A stretch of DNA of 64,000 nt from an uncultured Gemmatimonadota bacterium (GCA_903910555.1 CAIVZZ010000004.1:62001-126000); one strand, 5' to 3'. Shown: positions 34,894-41,565, counted from the first letter of the stretch. Made by a program: numbers and translations. The notes: generated by a model not told the origin, from the letters alone.

Positions 34894-35406
34894 ATGTCAA
34901 ACCTACAGGGCACAGCGGCAGGCGCGACCAAGGCGCCGCCGATACCGTCGATGGATCTGAACCCGGCGCCACCGGCGACGGCGCGAGACATCGGGCGCGA
35001 GGTGGGCGCCGCTGTCCGGCAGGCGAAGGCCGCGGCTCGGGAGGCCAAACAGGCGGCACAGGCTCCTGTCAATCCGCCGCCCGCGCAGCAGACCGCGACG
35101 ACCGCGCCTGCGCCACCGTTCGACGCGAGCAACGTGATTCCCCCGCAGGTCGAAGGAATCTCGTACGCGTTTTTCACCACGGTAGCCATCTGCGTTGTCG
35201 GCTTGCCGCTCGCCCGCGCGTTTGGGCGGCTGCTCGATCGCAAGGCAGCGTACAAACCGGTGGCCGGCCCGGATCTGACGCCGCACATCCGTCAACTTCA
35301 GGATTCCGTCGACGCGATGGCGATCGAACTCGAGCGGATTTCCGAGGGGCAGCGGTTTACGGCGAAGCTGCTGGCCGAACGGTCAGGCGGGTCCGAGCAG
35401 AAGTAG
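34894..35406 (+). CDS. Single-pass membrane protein of unknown function
   Basis: 170 aa, ATG preceded by ACGGGAG. The first 85 residues are Ala/Pro/Gln-rich and hold a predicted helix (AAVRQAKAAAREAKQAAQAP). One membrane segment at about 90-108 (ISYAFFTTVAICVVGLPLA), then a coiled-coil-like helix (HIRQLQDSVDAMAIELERISEGQRF). No family recognised. It ends inside the convergent helicase gene (24-bp overlap). Confidence 0.6.
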   Translation: MSNLQGTAAGATKAPPIPSMDLNPAPPATARDIGREVGAAVRQAKAAAREAKQAAQAPVNPPPAQQTATTAPAPPFDASNVIPPQVEGISYAFFTTVAICVVGLPLARAFGRLLDRKAAYKPVAGPDLTPHIRQLQDSVDAMAIELERISEGQRFTAKLLAERSGGSEQK

Positions 35407-37530
35407 GAGTGCGGAGAGTCCGGTCTGCTCGCCGTGTGTGGCAGCAGCCGCGGCCGCGGCGTTCGAGAGTCGCGTTTCACACAGCGTGAGCCACGAGTCG
35501 AGATCAGCTGCGTCGGCGTTGGCGAGATCCGCGAGCTCGCGTTCTGCTCCCACGCTGACGGCGCGATCGATCAGCGTACGGATGGCTGTCACTCGATTTG
35601 CGTGTGCCGCGCGCGTGTGAGCGCCTGCGCTGCGAAGCGCGGCGTCGACGCGGGCGAGAATCGCGCGACGCGCGTGTGAAGCGGGAGCGCAAGCACCGCT
35701 CGATTCGCGCGCACGGCGGCCGGCCAGCCATCGCGAGAGCGCGGCGCGCGCTGCCGTCTCGAATTTTTGGTCCGGCGGTGCGGGTGCGACCTTCACTGCG
35801 AGCGCCATCGCGGCTAAGTCGCCGGGCGCATCGCTGACTCTCCATCGGCCGGTTCTGTCGATCAGACCACAAACAACCGATTCAGAACCAGCTCCGCGCA
35901 CGACCGCAATACAGCCCCGCCGAGTCGAGTGGACACATGCAGCGATCGAGTGACCTGTCGTGCGATCGTCGGCTGGCCACACGCTGACGGCGGCGCGCAG
36001 CTGCTCGACTTCTTTCGGCACACGTGCCGCCTCGATTCGCTCGGCGTGCTTTCTCGCGAAATGACGTTCGAGGGCCAGCAGTCGCTCAGCGGCCGGAGGC
36101 GGTACGAAGCCGTATACATGGACGCGCTCGTGCAGGGATCCCATCCGCGCTGCGCGACCGACGCGCTGCTCGAGCGCGGCGGGGGTCCATGGGATGTCGA
36201 GGTGCACGACCACCGACGCGCCCTGAAGGTTGACGCCTTCACTGAGAAGGTCCGTTGTGATCAAGAGCGAGATGTGATCACGGCGGGTCGTGGTGCGCGC
36301 GTCGCCGGCAAGTGCATCGATAACCTCGGAACGCGGACGTGAGCCTCCCGCCGTGCGAGCGCCACGCGCAGTGAGCACTGCCACGCCGTTCTCCGCTCGC
36401 AGCGCATGATAGAGTGCATCGGCCGTTGCCGCGTGCGACGTAAATGCGATGACCTGCGCGCATGGATGCGCGGCGCGGAGTTCGATCAGCATTTCGGCGC
36501 GCTGCGCCGAATCGCCAGCTATTTTCTTGCGAATGCGCGCGCGGAGCGCGCTCACTCCGGCGAGATGCGCGTCGAGCACTGCGCGCAGACGGGAAGTATC
36601 CGGCGCGCGATGCGACGCAAACATTGGAAAGGCGAGCTGCACCGAGTCATCGCCGACGACCCAGGCGCGCAGTTCATCGCGCGTGGGCACGCGGCCGTCG
36701 TCGAGGATAGCGGAGAGCGCCGCGCCGCGCTGCAGTCGTCGCCGAAGCGCGCTGTCGAGCGCCGCGAGGCTTGATGCCCAGCAGCGCGCAAGCGTGATGG
36801 TGAGCAGCGCCGATGCTTCACGACCATCGAGTGCGGGCAGCGGCGCCGGGAGATTCGAGATTGCGTCACGCAGCTGCGGCCCGGAGCGAACGCGACGCCA
36901 GTGCGGCCCGTCGATTGCCGGGAGCAGCGATGTATCACTGGCGTGGCGCACGATGCACTGCCCGCGCGCTGTGTCGCTGAGTGTGTAGGCTCGCGGGCCC
37001 AGAAAGAGCGCCAGCAAAGCAGAAAGCTCCGCCGTTCTGTTGCGCACCGGAGTCGCTGACAGAAGCAGAACGCGACGGTACGCCACGAGACGCGAGAGTC
37101 GCGCGTAACGCGCGGTTGCCGGATTGCATACGTGATGCGCTTCGTCGACAATCACCAGTCCGTTTGCGGGATCGTCGGGCAGCGCGATCGCGGATTTGCG
37201 CCGGCTCAGTGCCTCCATGGAGATGAACGAAACAGTCAGTCCGGCGGCGGCGGCCGCCTCGCGCCACATCGAACGAAGCGCACCGGGTGCGATGACGGTC
37301 GTGTCGCGAAAGCTGTGCGCGAGTGCGAGCGCTACGTACGTCTTGCCGAGGCCGGGTTCGTCTGCGAGGAGTGCGCCGCCCGTGCCCTCTACGCTGGCGC
37401 GGACACGATGCAGCGCGTCGCGCTGATGCGCGCGCAGCGTGATGCCGCCCGCAGTGACCGGTGCGTCATTGGCGTTTCCGAGGACCGCGCTCGCGATTGT
37501 CGCGAGCACAGCGTTCAGCGCAGACACCAT
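35383..37530 (-). CDS. SNF2-like (superfamily 2) DNA helicase/translocase paired with the adenine methyltransferase
   Basis: 715 aa. ATP-driven DNA translocase of the SNF2/DEAH type. Motif I ADEPGLGKTY (Walker A at about residues 58-64), motif II VDEAHH (128-133), motif III LLLSATPVRNRT (near 158-168), and in the second lobe ITTDLLSEGVNLQGASVVVHLDIPW, followed by LEQRVGRAARMGS as motif VI. About 190 C-terminal residues are Ala/Arg-rich with no known domain. The ATG lies inside the 3' end of the methyltransferase gene (16-bp overlap), so expression is coupled. No nuclease domain is seen. Such a helicase next to an Eco57I-type methyltransferase is reminiscent of DISARM or BREX parts, but the other subunits are missing. 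Confidence 0.85.
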   Translation of the reverse strand: MVSALNAVLATIASAVLGNANDAPVTAGGITLRAHQRDALHRVRASVEGTGGALLADEPGLGKTYVALALAHSFRDTTVIAPGALRSMWREAAAAAGLTVSFISMEALSRRKSAIALPDDPANGLVIVDEAHHVCNPATARYARLSRLVAYRRVLLLSATPVRNRTAELSALLALFLGPRAYTLSDTARGQCIVRHASDTSLLPAIDGPHWRRVRSGPQLRDAISNLPAPLPALDGREASALLTITLARCWASSLAALDSALRRRLQRGAALSAILDDGRVPTRDELRAWVVGDDSVQLAFPMFASHRAPDTSRLRAVLDAHLAGVSALRARIRKKIAGDSAQRAEMLIELRAAHPCAQVIAFTSHAATADALYHALRAENGVAVLTARGARTAGGSRPRSEVIDALAGDARTTTRRDHISLLITTDLLSEGVNLQGASVVVHLDIPWTPAALEQRVGRAARMGSLHERVHVYGFVPPPAAERLLALERHFARKHAERIEAARVPKEVEQLRAAVSVWPADDRTTGHSIAACVHSTRRGCIAVVRGAGSESVVCGLIDRTGRWRVSDAPGDLAAMALAVKVAPAPPDQKFETAARAALSRWLAGRRARESSGACAPASHARRAILARVDAALRSAGAHTRAAHANRVTAIRTLIDRAVSVGAERELADLANADAADLDSWLTLCETRLSNAAAAAAATHGEQTGLSALLLLLGPA

Positions 37531-40500
37531 GTGAGCAGCGGCTCGATGTCGCACGAGCGCACGCGATATGCGCGTATTGCAGCATCGGTGAGTGTACTCG
37601 CATCGGGGATTTCACCGTCGAGCGCCTCGCGTGCGAGCGGTGCGAGTATCGAAACCGCGCACGGCCAGTCGAGCGGGATCGGCAGACGTGCGAGCGTCCA
37701 GCCCAGGTAGCGGTGATAGCCACCGCGCGCAGGCTCGGCGATTATTGCCAGCCATGCCGCGACGACTGGTGAGTTGAGGAGCGCGGCGAGCGCATACGCG
37801 TCGTCGAGCGACGGCGTGCGCGCGACATAGCAGCTGTTGATCGGCACAGTGGTATCGCCGGGCAGCAGTACGAGTGCGCGCGGGGATTTCCCGATATCGC
37901 TCCAGACCACGCGCGGCAGATGGCTTCGCGCCGCATCGGTGCGAAAGAGCGACCACCAGCGCGAGGCTCGTGCGGCATCGGCGCGTGACTCGAGTTGTTT
38001 ACGCCACGGCGCGAGCCACGCCGCCGCTCCCGTGGGGAGCTGTTTCATCGGCGCGTCGCTTACGTCGTGCGTCCAAAGGACGGCTGAGTCATCCGCAGTC
38101 GCGCTCCATGCGCGAACCGCTTCGCCACGGAGCAGCGGCCGCAGCATCCGGCGTTCGACACGACCGTTGCGATCGCCGCTGGTCACAGGCCAGAAATCAT
38201 TTCGGGCATCGCGCCATCCGGCGGCAGGCGTGACGATGAATGCGTCGTTACAGCCGCTCTTCACACCGAGGATCGGACGTCCGAGCGGTGTGCGCGCGAG
38301 CGGCGTTCCGGCGGCGTTGATGCGATCGAATGCGGCGCGAGCATCCGGTGGAAGCAGAAGCCAGGGTGCGCCGGGGGTGTCGTCCAGGCCGATACGCGCG
38401 CGGGCCATATTCCATTCAAGCGCGCTGTCGCGGTGGTGCACGGCGATGCGCACGACGGATGGATTGTCGTCGAAGGGTTCGTCATCGTCGTGCTTGCTCG
38501 CGAGCAGGAACGACGGATATACGGCTGCGTCAAAGGCGGCGCGCGATTCTGCCCAGTCCTCGATCGCGCAGAGATCGACGCGGTCATCAAGCACGCGCCG
38601 CACACCGCCGCCGGCGAGCGAGCGCCAGAGTTTGGCGGGCAAGAGCAGCGCGATCGTACCGCCCGGTCGCGCGAGAGCGACGGACCGCTCCACAAATAGC
38701 GCAGCGAGATCGACCTGCGCGGAGAAACCACGCCCCGCGCCGGTTTCCTCGGCCCCGGGCATCCACGCTGCTTCGCGAAACGCACGGTATCGCGCGCGCA
38801 GCACATCGCGCATTGCCGGTGGAATGTTATGCAGCCGCACCCACGGTGGGTTGCCTATGACAAGGTTGAAGCCTTCGTTCGCGGCCGCGTCGGAGAAATG
38901 GACGGGAAATGAGAACGGAAGAGGCGCGCCTGACTTCAGCGCGGCAACTCGCCGCCGCAACTGACGCGCGTGATGGCGCAGCTCGCCGAGCAGTGCGCGC
39001 TGCGCCGGCGCCGCAACGGTGCGCTCGGCGAACAGATCGTGCGATCGCATCGCGCAGAGCAGGTCGCGGCGGCGCGCTGCGATGGCGTCTCGTTCCCGTT
39101 CGGCAACGAGGATCGCCGCGCGACGCTCTTCGCGATCGAGCGTGCGGGCGAGCAGCCGCTTGCGCGCGCCAGTGGAACGGGCATAGCGGCCGCGCAGCTG
39201 CGCGAGCGCAGTGGGCACGACGATTTGGGCGGAATCGTCGAACGCGGGACCTGCGAGCGCGTCGCCGGCGCGAATGTGGCGATCGAGATTCGGGAGCGGG
39301 CGCACGCTGTGGGGATCGCTCTCGTCGGCATCGATCACTACAGAGAGCCAGAGCCGCAGTTCGCAGAGCCAAACGGCCGTCGGATTCACATCGACGCCGA
39401 AGATCGATCGAGTAAGCACTTCGCGGCGGCGATCACCGACTGACCGATCGTCGCCGGCCGCCTGCGCGAGATCGGCGATGCGCTCGAGGAGATGCACGAG
39501 GAACGCCCCCGATCCGCAGGCCGGATCGAGCACGCGCAGTTTCCCCAGCGCGCCCCGCAGGACTTCGCGCTGCGCGGCCGGCAGGCGGTGACCGTCGCGC
39601 GCCGCGCGGGTGATCTCTATCGGAACGTCGAGCGATTCGAGCACCGTCTCCAGTCCGCTGCCGGCGACGCGTTCGATGATCGCACTCGGCGTGTAGAACG
39701 CGCCCGACGAACGTCGGTCAGCTGCGGCCATCAGCGACTCAAACGCCCGGCCGAGCATTTCGGGATCGATCGCCGCTTCGCTCCACGCGGACGACGTTTC
39801 GCGCGCGGTAACGCGATAGCGGGCGAGGAGGCCGCCGATGAGCTCGCCGAGTGCTTCGTCGGAAAATCGAAGATCGCCTGCGCTCCGTTCCAGCGGGGTG
39901 CGCGCGAAGAGTCCGCCATTGAGAAATGGAATGCGGCCGAGCGAACGCGCCGCCGCGGCACGTTTGTTGACCGGCGTATTCAGTGTTCCAAAGAAGAGCG
40001 GGTCGAGCAGGCGGCGATGAGCATCTCCGCCGTTGGCGCAGCGCGCGTCGAATGCGTGGCGAAGAAACTCGCGATCGCCGTCGAGCCATCCTTTTGCTTC
40101 GAGGAATGCGATGAAGAGGATGCGCGATGAACAGAGGAGCGCGAGCTCGCGTCGCGCTGCGATGTCAGCGCGGCCGCGCGCGGAGGTGGCGAGTGTACCG
40201 ACTACGCCCTCGAGTTCGCGATAGAAGCGCCGGGTGAGCGCATCGCGGCCGAGAAGTTCCCGCCAGCGGTGGTGCACGAGTACGTCCGCGCCGCACGCGG
40301 CATCGGCCATGGCGGCGAGGGTTTCGCCGTCGGAGTCGGTGATGCGGGCGAGATCCATCGAGAGCGCGGCGATTTGCGTTCGAGTGCCCGGTGCGGGTGC
40401 CGCCATCACGAGCGCGTTGGCCGATGGCTGTGTGACGATGAGCAACCAGAGCAACTGCGGCGCGCGCGCGGTTGTCTGCGCGGCGACGCGTGCGACAGTT

Positions 40501-40727
40501 TCGCGCAGCGACACGCCCGGCGCTGGCTCGAGCAGCAATGCGCGGAGCGTGCCGGCGCCGTTTGCAACTGATGCGCGTTTGATAGCGCGATCGAGGCCGA
40601 GTGCGCGGCGGCCTTCGAGGTCTAGTGGGAGCGGCTCGGTGAATCCCAGCGCGATGGAGATTCGCGCGAGGTCACGGAAGGTTCGGGCGCCGGTGAGGAG
40701 CTCGGCGGCATTGCGGAGAGAGGACAC
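37515..40727 (-). CDS. Eco57I-class N6-adenine DNA methyltransferase, large
   Basis: 1070 aa, GTG start. SAM-binding motif I LDPACGSGAFLVHL near residues 398-411, and the catalytic motif IV NPPW near 626-629, the N6-adenine gamma-class signature. A long N-terminal region (about 1-330, with LLWLLIVTQPSANALVM and LLGRDALTRRFYRELEG) and a C-terminal region (about 760-1070, with RPLLRGEAVRAWS and GKSPRALVLLPG) follow the plan of type IIG/IIL and BREX PglX-like enzymes, where the C-terminus reads the DNA target. No PD-(D/E)xK motif is obvious at the N-terminus, but weak ones would be missed. Forms a two-gene unit with the helicase. Confidence 0.88.
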   Translation of the reverse strand: MSSLRNAAELLTGARTFRDLARISIALGFTEPLPLDLEGRRALGLDRAIKRASVANGAGTLRALLLEPAPGVSLRETVARVAAQTTARAPQLLWLLIVTQPSANALVMAAPAPGTRTQIAALSMDLARITDSDGETLAAMADAACGADVLVHHRWRELLGRDALTRRFYRELEGVVGTLATSARGRADIAARRELALLCSSRILFIAFLEAKGWLDGDREFLRHAFDARCANGGDAHRRLLDPLFFGTLNTPVNKRAAAARSLGRIPFLNGGLFARTPLERSAGDLRFSDEALGELIGGLLARYRVTARETSSAWSEAAIDPEMLGRAFESLMAAADRRSSGAFYTPSAIIERVAGSGLETVLESLDVPIEITRAARDGHRLPAAQREVLRGALGKLRVLDPACGSGAFLVHLLERIADLAQAAGDDRSVGDRRREVLTRSIFGVDVNPTAVWLCELRLWLSVVIDADESDPHSVRPLPNLDRHIRAGDALAGPAFDDSAQIVVPTALAQLRGRYARSTGARKRLLARTLDREERRAAILVAERERDAIAARRRDLLCAMRSHDLFAERTVAAPAQRALLGELRHHARQLRRRVAALKSGAPLPFSFPVHFSDAAANEGFNLVIGNPPWVRLHNIPPAMRDVLRARYRAFREAAWMPGAEETGAGRGFSAQVDLAALFVERSVALARPGGTIALLLPAKLWRSLAGGGVRRVLDDRVDLCAIEDWAESRAAFDAAVYPSFLLASKHDDDEPFDDNPSVVRIAVHHRDSALEWNMARARIGLDDTPGAPWLLLPPDARAAFDRINAAGTPLARTPLGRPILGVKSGCNDAFIVTPAAGWRDARNDFWPVTSGDRNGRVERRMLRPLLRGEAVRAWSATADDSAVLWTHDVSDAPMKQLPTGAAAWLAPWRKQLESRADAARASRWWSLFRTDAARSHLPRVVWSDIGKSPRALVLLPGDTTVPINSCYVARTPSLDDAYALAALLNSPVVAAWLAIIAEPARGGYHRYLGWTLARLPIPLDWPCAVSILAPLAREALDGEIPDASTLTDAAIRAYRVRSCDIEPLLTWCLR

Positions 40728-40811
40728 ACCGCACGATGGCGTGCGGCGCGGACGGAAGCTTTACCTGATCTGCGCATGGCGTATCGAAAAAGCGCAGCGA
40801 ATCGAACCGCA

Positions 40812-40903
40812 AGTGGAAGGTTAACAACTAACTGTTGGTCGGTGTTCTGTTGACGAATTTGTTAACAGAACACCGACCAACAGTTAGTAGTTAACAGTTC
40901 ACT
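40812..40903. repeat. Large palindrome, family A copy 3
   Basis: A 92-bp inverted repeat. Both arms contain CTAACTGTTGGTCGGTGTTC or its complement and TTAAC near the ends, as in the elements at 6187 and 8441. The core is short (TTGACGAATTTGTTAACA). It ends with TTTTT beside the stop of the HAD gene, so on the minus strand it is a terminator for that gene, and lies 84 bases upstream of the methyltransferase start. Confidence 0.85.
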
Positions 40904-40905
40904 TT

Positions 40906-41565
40906 TTATGCCGTGAGTGCGTCTATCAGTTTCGGAAACTCACCGATATTCTCCAGCCAGTACGTCGGCTTCGCCACCGCAATCTGCTCGCGCGTGAACG
41001 GCCCCCAGAGCGCGCCAACAGTTCGCACGCCGGCGGCGTTTCCCGAGTTGATGTCATGCGGCGAATCGCCAACCATGAGCGCTTCGTTCGCACGGACGCC
41101 GAGTTTTTCGAGTGCGAGCAACACGGGCTCGGGTTCCGGTTTGTGTCTGGTGACCGAGTCTGCACCGATCACCACCGGCAGAAACTTCGAGAGGCCGGTG
41201 ATATCGATTCCACGCTGCGCGAGCTCATTTCCCTTTGACGTGACGATTCCCATCACCAGTCCGCGAGCGTGAAGGTTCTCGAGTACCGCGGTTGTTCCCG
41301 GATATTCCTTGATCACCTCGTCGTGATGAACGAACTGATATGCGCGGTACCGCTCGCGCAGCATCTCGAGTTCTTCCGGGCTGCGCGCGTAGAGTGCGAG
41401 CTGTTTGTAGAGCGGAGTGCCGATCCCGGCCATCCACGCGGAGTCGTCGGGGACTTCGCCGGTGAATGCTTCAAAGGCATGATGCATTGCATCGACGATC
41501 AGACCGATCGAGTCGATGAGGGTGCCGTCGAGGTCGAATAGGACGGCTTTGAGTTTAGTGGGCAT
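40906..41565 (-). CDS. HAD superfamily hydrolase, phosphoglycolate/pyrophosphatase-like
   Basis: 219 aa phosphatase. HAD motif I VLFDLDGTLIDS (residues 8-19) carries the nucleophile Asp, motif II is IVTSKG (about 107-112), the motif III Lys is in RHKPEPEP, and motif IV is MVGDSPHDINSGNAAG. The helical cap between motifs I and II is of the C1 type. PpaX/Gph-like; the substrate is uncertain. First of three minus-strand genes counted from the palindrome, separate from the GT2 gene by 9 bases. Confidence 0.88.
   Translation of the reverse strand: MPTKLKAVLFDLDGTLIDSIGLIVDAMHHAFEAFTGEVPDDSAWMAGIGTPLYKQLALYARSPEELEMLRERYRAYQFVHHDEVIKEYPGTTAVLENLHARGLVMGIVTSKGNELAQRGIDITGLSKFLPVVIGADSVTRHKPEPEPVLLALEKLGVRANEALMVGDSPHDINSGNAAGVRTVGALWGPFTREQIAVAKPTYWLENIGEFPKLIDALTA

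Follow-up and report, generated by a model that had tools for sequence, protein, structure and literature searches.

The window, a 64,000-nucleotide stretch of DNA from an uncultured Gemmatimonadota bacterium, carries an N6-adenine methyltransferase gene that overlaps the gene of a SNF2-family DNA translocase. We consider it probable, though far from certain, that this pair descends from an ATP-dependent restriction-modification system of two genes and has been domesticated with loss of the nuclease. The ancestral system would have joined an HKD nuclease-SNF2 translocase fusion to an Eco57I/MmeI-class N6-adenine methyltransferase, and its descendant would now persist as a vertically inherited methylation-plus-translocase system. 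The individual parts and the HKD-bearing relatives of the pair are of known kinds; in the open-access literature searched, we saw no nuclease-less pair reported as a core locus.

The gene pair and the search for a nuclease

Both genes lie on the minus strand. The methyltransferase gene (37,515–40,727) has a GTG start and encodes 1070 aa, and the helicase gene (35,383–37,530) encodes 715 aa counted from its ATG, or 723 aa from an alternative in-frame GTG located 24 bases further upstream. These open frames and their 16-bp overlap (37,515–37,530, minus strand) agree with the preliminary description of this DNA. The exact overlap recurs in seven related loci (L083, L088, L089, L090, L092, L093, and L097), so that it is not due to chance, and it is consistent with translational coupling. 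The methyltransferase matches the Pfam families Eco57I (6e-15), N6_Mtase (1e-7), and also MmeI_Mtase, and retains intact catalytic motifs (DPACGSGAF at 401 and NPPW at 626). The helicase matches Helicase_C (4e-15), SNF2-rel_dom (1e-12), and also ResIII, with all of its motor motifs intact (GLGKT at 60, DEAH at 129, SATP at 158, and QRVGRAAR at 455). NCBIfam and PADLOC place the first protein near PglX, type IIG, and DrmMI enzymes and the second near DpdE, DrmD, and BrxH, the NCBIfam scores being in both cases far under the curated cut-offs.

The methyltransferase comprises an N-terminal alpha/beta domain (residues about 1–160), a helical spacer containing LNGGLF (161–394), the catalytic core with the DPACGSGAF and NPPW motifs (395–775), and a TaqI_C/BseCI-like target-recognition region (776–1070). 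Its structure model is confident (mean pLDDT 91, pTM 0.90). The top Foldseek hits were M.BseCI (E 7e-21) and CamA (E 3e-20), with PglX and MmeI next. With VIA-align, the best structural match was CamA (Z 29.2, 525 residues, 3.1 Å), ahead of Escherichia coli BrxX (Z 26.7, 653 residues, 3.4 Å, starting at model residue 163), M.BseCI (Z 26.5, 499 residues, 2.6 Å), the type ISP structure 5ffj (Z 23.7), and MmeI (5hr4; Z 23.2, 660 residues, 4.1 Å). A sequence profile of 49 relatives recovered the same PDB proteins (CamA 1e-59, M.BseCI 4e-51).

The pair had been described as devoid of a visible nuclease, with a recommendation to search both proteins with HMMs. A Pfam search of both found no nuclease family. 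For the PD-(D/E)XK nuclease typical of the N-terminus of type IIG enzymes, the methyltransferase showed neither a Pfam or NCBIfam nuclease match nor conserved catalytic residues; its first 160 residues fold as an alpha/beta domain in the model, and residue conservation among relatives revealed no conserved acidic/Lys set in them. A nuclease at this end thus appears improbable from sequence and was rejected. We also rejected one in the C-terminal 220 aa of the helicase, a quickly evolving region that matches no family, and at the N-terminus of this protein the HKD motif is absent, there being no N-terminal domain. The PADLOC label "REase_MTase_IIG" given to the methyltransferase was not counted as evidence for a nuclease because the matched stretches correspond to the methyltransferase part. 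Pfam, NCBIfam, PADLOC, and residue conservation alike thus uphold the original observation, and no nuclease-bearing DUF emerged in the terminal regions of either protein.

The surroundings of the pair, which include genes for a HAD phosphatase, a glycosyltransferase, an SDF symporter, a small membrane-like protein, and a sigma factor, appear unremarkable. As previously noted, the closest flanks (HAD, palindrome, and small membrane protein) add no nuclease in the Pfam search. The HAD-family phosphatase (PpaX/phosphoglycolate phosphatase-like; 40,906–41,565, minus strand) is a conserved syntenic neighbour outside the proposed mechanism. The small membrane-like protein (34,894–35,406, plus strand) is encoded convergently, shares 24 bp with the end of the helicase gene, and is conserved in close relatives only. 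The palindrome in the gap between the HAD and methyltransferase genes (40,811–40,904, not assigned to a strand) is real, with 47-nt arms that are 87% complementary. It has 117 matches in the genome, a few of them full-length and many of them half-units about 100 bp apart, and could represent a MITE- or REP-like family; given this genome-wide dispersal, we rejected it as part of the methyltransferase-helicase unit.

Distribution and chromosomal place

We surveyed 298 genomes of the phylum Gemmatimonadota, tallying the counts by kinship by hand. The methyltransferase occurs in 170 of them. In the family of the window, 93 of 103 genomes have it (two of these matches, in G170 and G235, being weak and partial); another two families of this order contribute 64 of 69, which brings the order to 157/172, against 13/126 in the rest of the phylum. 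The helicase, counted from a single-sequence query, was found in 88/103, 59/69, and 6/126 genomes, respectively (147/172 for the order). Both genes are adjacent, in the same order and on the same strand, in 38 of the 40 loci fetched. Two deeper families show an apparent gap of 0.5–0.85 kb between them; in the locus of this kind that was checked (L075), the gap is the 5′ part of a longer helicase gene (1026 aa) overlapping the methyltransferase gene by 4 bp. Pair conservation, for which the preliminary description had recommended a check, is hence strong.

Across the family, varying subsets of glycosyltransferase, SDF symporter, HAD, sigma factor, and DUF4097 genes flank the pair; the neighbour set of the window also often does so in the sister families, and in one deeper family HAD lies a few kb downstream. 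The same neighbours mark sites from which the pair is missing: HAD is followed by DUF4097 in G188, and glycosyltransferase, SDF symporter, and/or HAD genes are kept in G248, G172, and G263. The weak match in G170 is a 193-residue methyltransferase relic between HAD and DUF4097, and that in G235 merely a contig end. Genomes without the pair are mostly small (1.8–3.0 Mb) or fragmented, and the absences are clean deletions or relics. The methyltransferase tree groups the loci by family. Since filled and empty sites share their neighbours, gene context indicates vertical inheritance of the pair at a single chromosomal position, with secondary loss. It thus resembles a core orphan methyltransferase in being lineage-wide, vertically inherited, and without a cognate nuclease, but it is not solitary, as a restriction-type partner, the SNF2 helicase, is co-inherited. 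In mobile DNA, a single-sequence query found no viral contig, an alignment query retrieved 26 distant viral contigs, mostly HKD-positive, and plasmids and phages gave only distant, mostly partial matches with <30% identity.

HKD-bearing relatives and the proposed course of domestication

The pair places an N6-adenine methyltransferase and a SNF2 helicase side by side, as do HKD-SNF2/methyltransferase restriction-modification pairs. Helicases outside the clade of the window are mostly 1000–1200 aa long and, N-terminal to the motor, bear an H-x-K ... GSSN motif. HKD was present in all 47 outgroup helicases with an N-terminus (45 by pattern, L154 and L201 by inspection), two others cut by contig ends having been left out; Pfam detected PLDc_2 in both outgroup helicases scanned, and PADLOC calls HKD+Snf2. 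Throughout the clade of the window the motif is absent, a single pattern match (L069) having been discarded as chance because the surrounding domain is missing. In the methyltransferase tree (53 rows) as in the helicase tree (30 rows, only five of them HKD-positive), both unrooted, a single branch with 99% support separates the HKD-minus members from the others. Besides Gemmatimonadota, the HKD-minus side includes a few Myxococcota, gut Proteobacteria, Acidobacteriota, one viral-labelled contig and, in the methyltransferase tree, one deltaproteobacterial contig. Two outgroup loci have further additions: a 1486-aa methyltransferase relative from Herpetosiphonaceae (L169:8600-13060), adjoining an HKD-SNF2 helicase, has a fused N-terminal protein kinase domain, and the HKD-SNF2 helicase of a viral contig (L201:5582-9436) has, by inspection, an N-terminal HNH-like stretch (HHCAVC...HVIPW...CAGCH).

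As the trees are unrooted, we infer the direction of change, loss rather than gain, from remnants in two deeper Gemmatimonadota families, f4 and f9. In a multiple alignment, the N-terminal stretch of their helicases aligns to the PLD region, although it is degenerate: H and K are replaced, GSSN has become GAHF or GAHY in f4, and f9 is more reduced. Helicases of the order of the window start shortly ahead of the motor and have no PLD-like domain. Profile-profile alignment of the f9 helicase N-terminus with the HKD set joined only the part that follows the PLD domain, so that the PLD ancestry of f9 rests on the multiple alignment and on a model of modest confidence at this stretch, for which structure comparison covered only the motor. 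Together, these sequences suggest that the nuclease was lost stepwise, catalysis first and then the domain. Gene surroundings differ as well, in a small sample: HKD-positive pairs neighbour AbiJ, a GmrSD nuclease, an OLD/AriA-like ATPase, nSTAND1, a UvrD-like helicase, and DUF488, whereas the nuclease-less pairs sampled have ordinary neighbours (di-haem peroxidase, TPR protein, GH15 hydrolase, rhomboid, HAD, glycosyltransferase). An ancient immune system thus seems to have turned into a lasting housekeeping one in this order.

In the mechanism that we propose, the ancestral nuclease would have lost its catalytic residues before the whole domain disappeared. The methyltransferase would methylate adenine at N6 within a conserved site that its C-terminal recognition region selects, and the translocase, presumably made together with it, would form a complex and act with it, moving along DNA at the expense of ATP. 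The motor might strip proteins off the DNA, allowing freshly replicated strands to be methylated, or it might act at unmethylated sites or read the mark. Like CamA, the pair would more likely mark the whole chromosome epigenetically than cut foreign DNA. More tentatively, we suggest that the whole order may use the methyltransferase and the SNF2 motor as one epigenetic machine, in which the motor reads or serves the mark and clears proteins or alters transcription, following the stepwise dismantling of the nuclease. Solitary core methyltransferases such as Dam, CcrM, and CamA are already known, and the SNF2 family includes the eukaryotic chromatin remodellers. In contrast with those solitary enzymes, here the methylase has retained its motor throughout an order although the nuclease is gone, which raises the question of what service a SNF2 translocase renders to a methylase when nothing is cut. 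With their catalytically dead intermediate, the deeper families provide a way to test how immunity may have led to epigenetics, and cultured Gemmatimonas strains should allow testing. We found nothing relevant on Gemmatimonadota methylomes in the open-access literature searched.

Selection, competing explanations, and known systems

In comparison with the closest relatives, the methyltransferase has a dN/dS of about 0.11 and the helicase one of about 0.24. Both values fall inside or close to the range of their neighbours and are rough because dS is nearly saturated. Mean within-family identity of the methyltransferase is 38% in the N-terminus, 54% in the spacer, 52% in the catalytic core, and 52% in the recognition region, which makes a conserved target site plausible at the sequence level; for the helicase it amounts to 48% and 44% in the motor lobes and 23% in the C-terminus. 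The methyltransferase N-terminus and the helicase C-terminus are therefore the fast-evolving parts, and rapid evolution is common in defence genes.

Those two regions lend some support to another, possible but rather unlikely explanation: an immune system that works without cutting. The methyltransferase-translocase complex would recognise unmethylated incoming DNA, translocate, and block its replication, a non-cutting mode also proposed for BREX, or a host nuclease encoded elsewhere would cut. We retain this alternative because homologous parts work in BREX, DISARM, and ARMADA defence and because protection by ARMADA needs both the methyltransferase and the helicase motifs (PMC12458937); the outgroup pairs, moreover, sit among defence genes. 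Against it stand the single fixed chromosomal place and the vertical inheritance over the order, which also weaken the "minimal defence system" that the preliminary description had offered as one of three readings. No further BREX, DISARM, or BR component lies beside the pair, and the PLD proteins of this genome are confined to other contigs (C23, C27, and C29). Genome-wide tests likewise led us to reject BREX, DISARM, and BR identities: PglX models reach at most 58 bits against cut-offs of 400–900, with PglZ and BrxC missing from the locus; DrmD of class 1 DISARM scores 105 bits against a cut-off of 610, with no MZB domain in the genome; and the DUF499 ATPase of BR/Hma systems is likewise absent from the genome. 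Its one PglZ-domain match (G000:C5:139065-139646, L239), a 524-aa open frame on another contig than the pair, might by its size be a PorX-like regulator and not a BREX part.

It is improbable that the methyltransferase alone matters, as a CamA-like solitary methylase, with the helicase as an accessory being lost. The helicase is indeed the less conserved protein, it carries an in-frame stop in G091, and in G079 it is cleanly missing beside an intact methyltransferase (L100, G079:C2:5078000-5096000), where a sigma factor gene starts about 90 bp past the latter; this locus is a natural test of the methyltransferase working alone. Most genomes, however, retain the helicase next to the methyltransferase, under purifying selection and with intact motor motifs (Walker A in 67/67 orthologs, motif VI in 66/67). 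Elsewhere in the same family (G025:C3, L238:3955-15597), an 11.6-kb element with a 15–16 bp target duplication and imperfect terminal inverted repeats sits inside the methyltransferase gene. It encodes a 631-aa Cas1 (PF01867, 3e-42) and a 1025-aa family-B-type DNA polymerase and looks like a casposon; we found no paper treating casposons and Gemmatimonadota together in the open-access literature searched. The helicase loss in G079 and this insertion in G025 show that some lineages can do without the system.

That the pair is the relic of a larger system, decaying and with no present function, is highly implausible. One or both genes are gone from some genomes, but purifying selection across the order, with dN/dS far below 1, contradicts such decay, and almost every ortholog has an open frame and intact motifs (NPPW in 79/79 methyltransferases and the motif I pattern in 72/79). 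The earlier "remnant" reading thus fails as decay but stands as ancestry, given relatives that carry the nuclease and a clade that does not. The third reading, an epigenetic regulator, fits best of the three, the regulatory role itself being presumptive.

Among known systems, our preferred reading, domestication of a restriction-modification pair, relates the locus first to the HKD(PLD)-SNF2 plus IIG-class N6-methyltransferase pairs (PADLOC C3a139 and REase_MTase_IIG), which have a homologous methyltransferase and motor in two adjacent genes and form its sister group. These differ in the HKD nuclease of their helicase, in their mostly helicase-methyltransferase gene order (methyltransferase-helicase in the window), and in their patchy occurrence, whereas the window pair is a core locus. 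HKD-Swi2/Snf2 effectors also accompany N6-methyltransferases in Type-2 BR systems (PMC12839542). DISARM class 1 (DrmMI and DrmD), ARMADA, and BREX (PglX and BrxH) share a PglX-like methyltransferase and a RapA/SNF2-like helicase, but the window locus lacks their DrmA/B, YprA, BrxC/DUF499, or PglZ partners. Type ISP enzymes (LlaGI and LlaBIII) also combine a motor with an N6-methyltransferase, though in a single chain with an Mrr-type nuclease instead of in two proteins without one. The MmeI/type IIG/IIL enzymes share the methyltransferase core, helical spacer, and TRD; in the window, no active nuclease residues were found at the methyltransferase N-terminus and the translocase is a separate partner. 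CamA, the core orphan adenine methyltransferase of Clostridioides difficile (PMC8187626), is similar in structure and in its lineage-wide conservation without a nuclease, but it is solitary and only about 580 aa long, whereas the window methyltransferase is extended by 300 N-terminal residues and is co-inherited with a SNF2 translocase.
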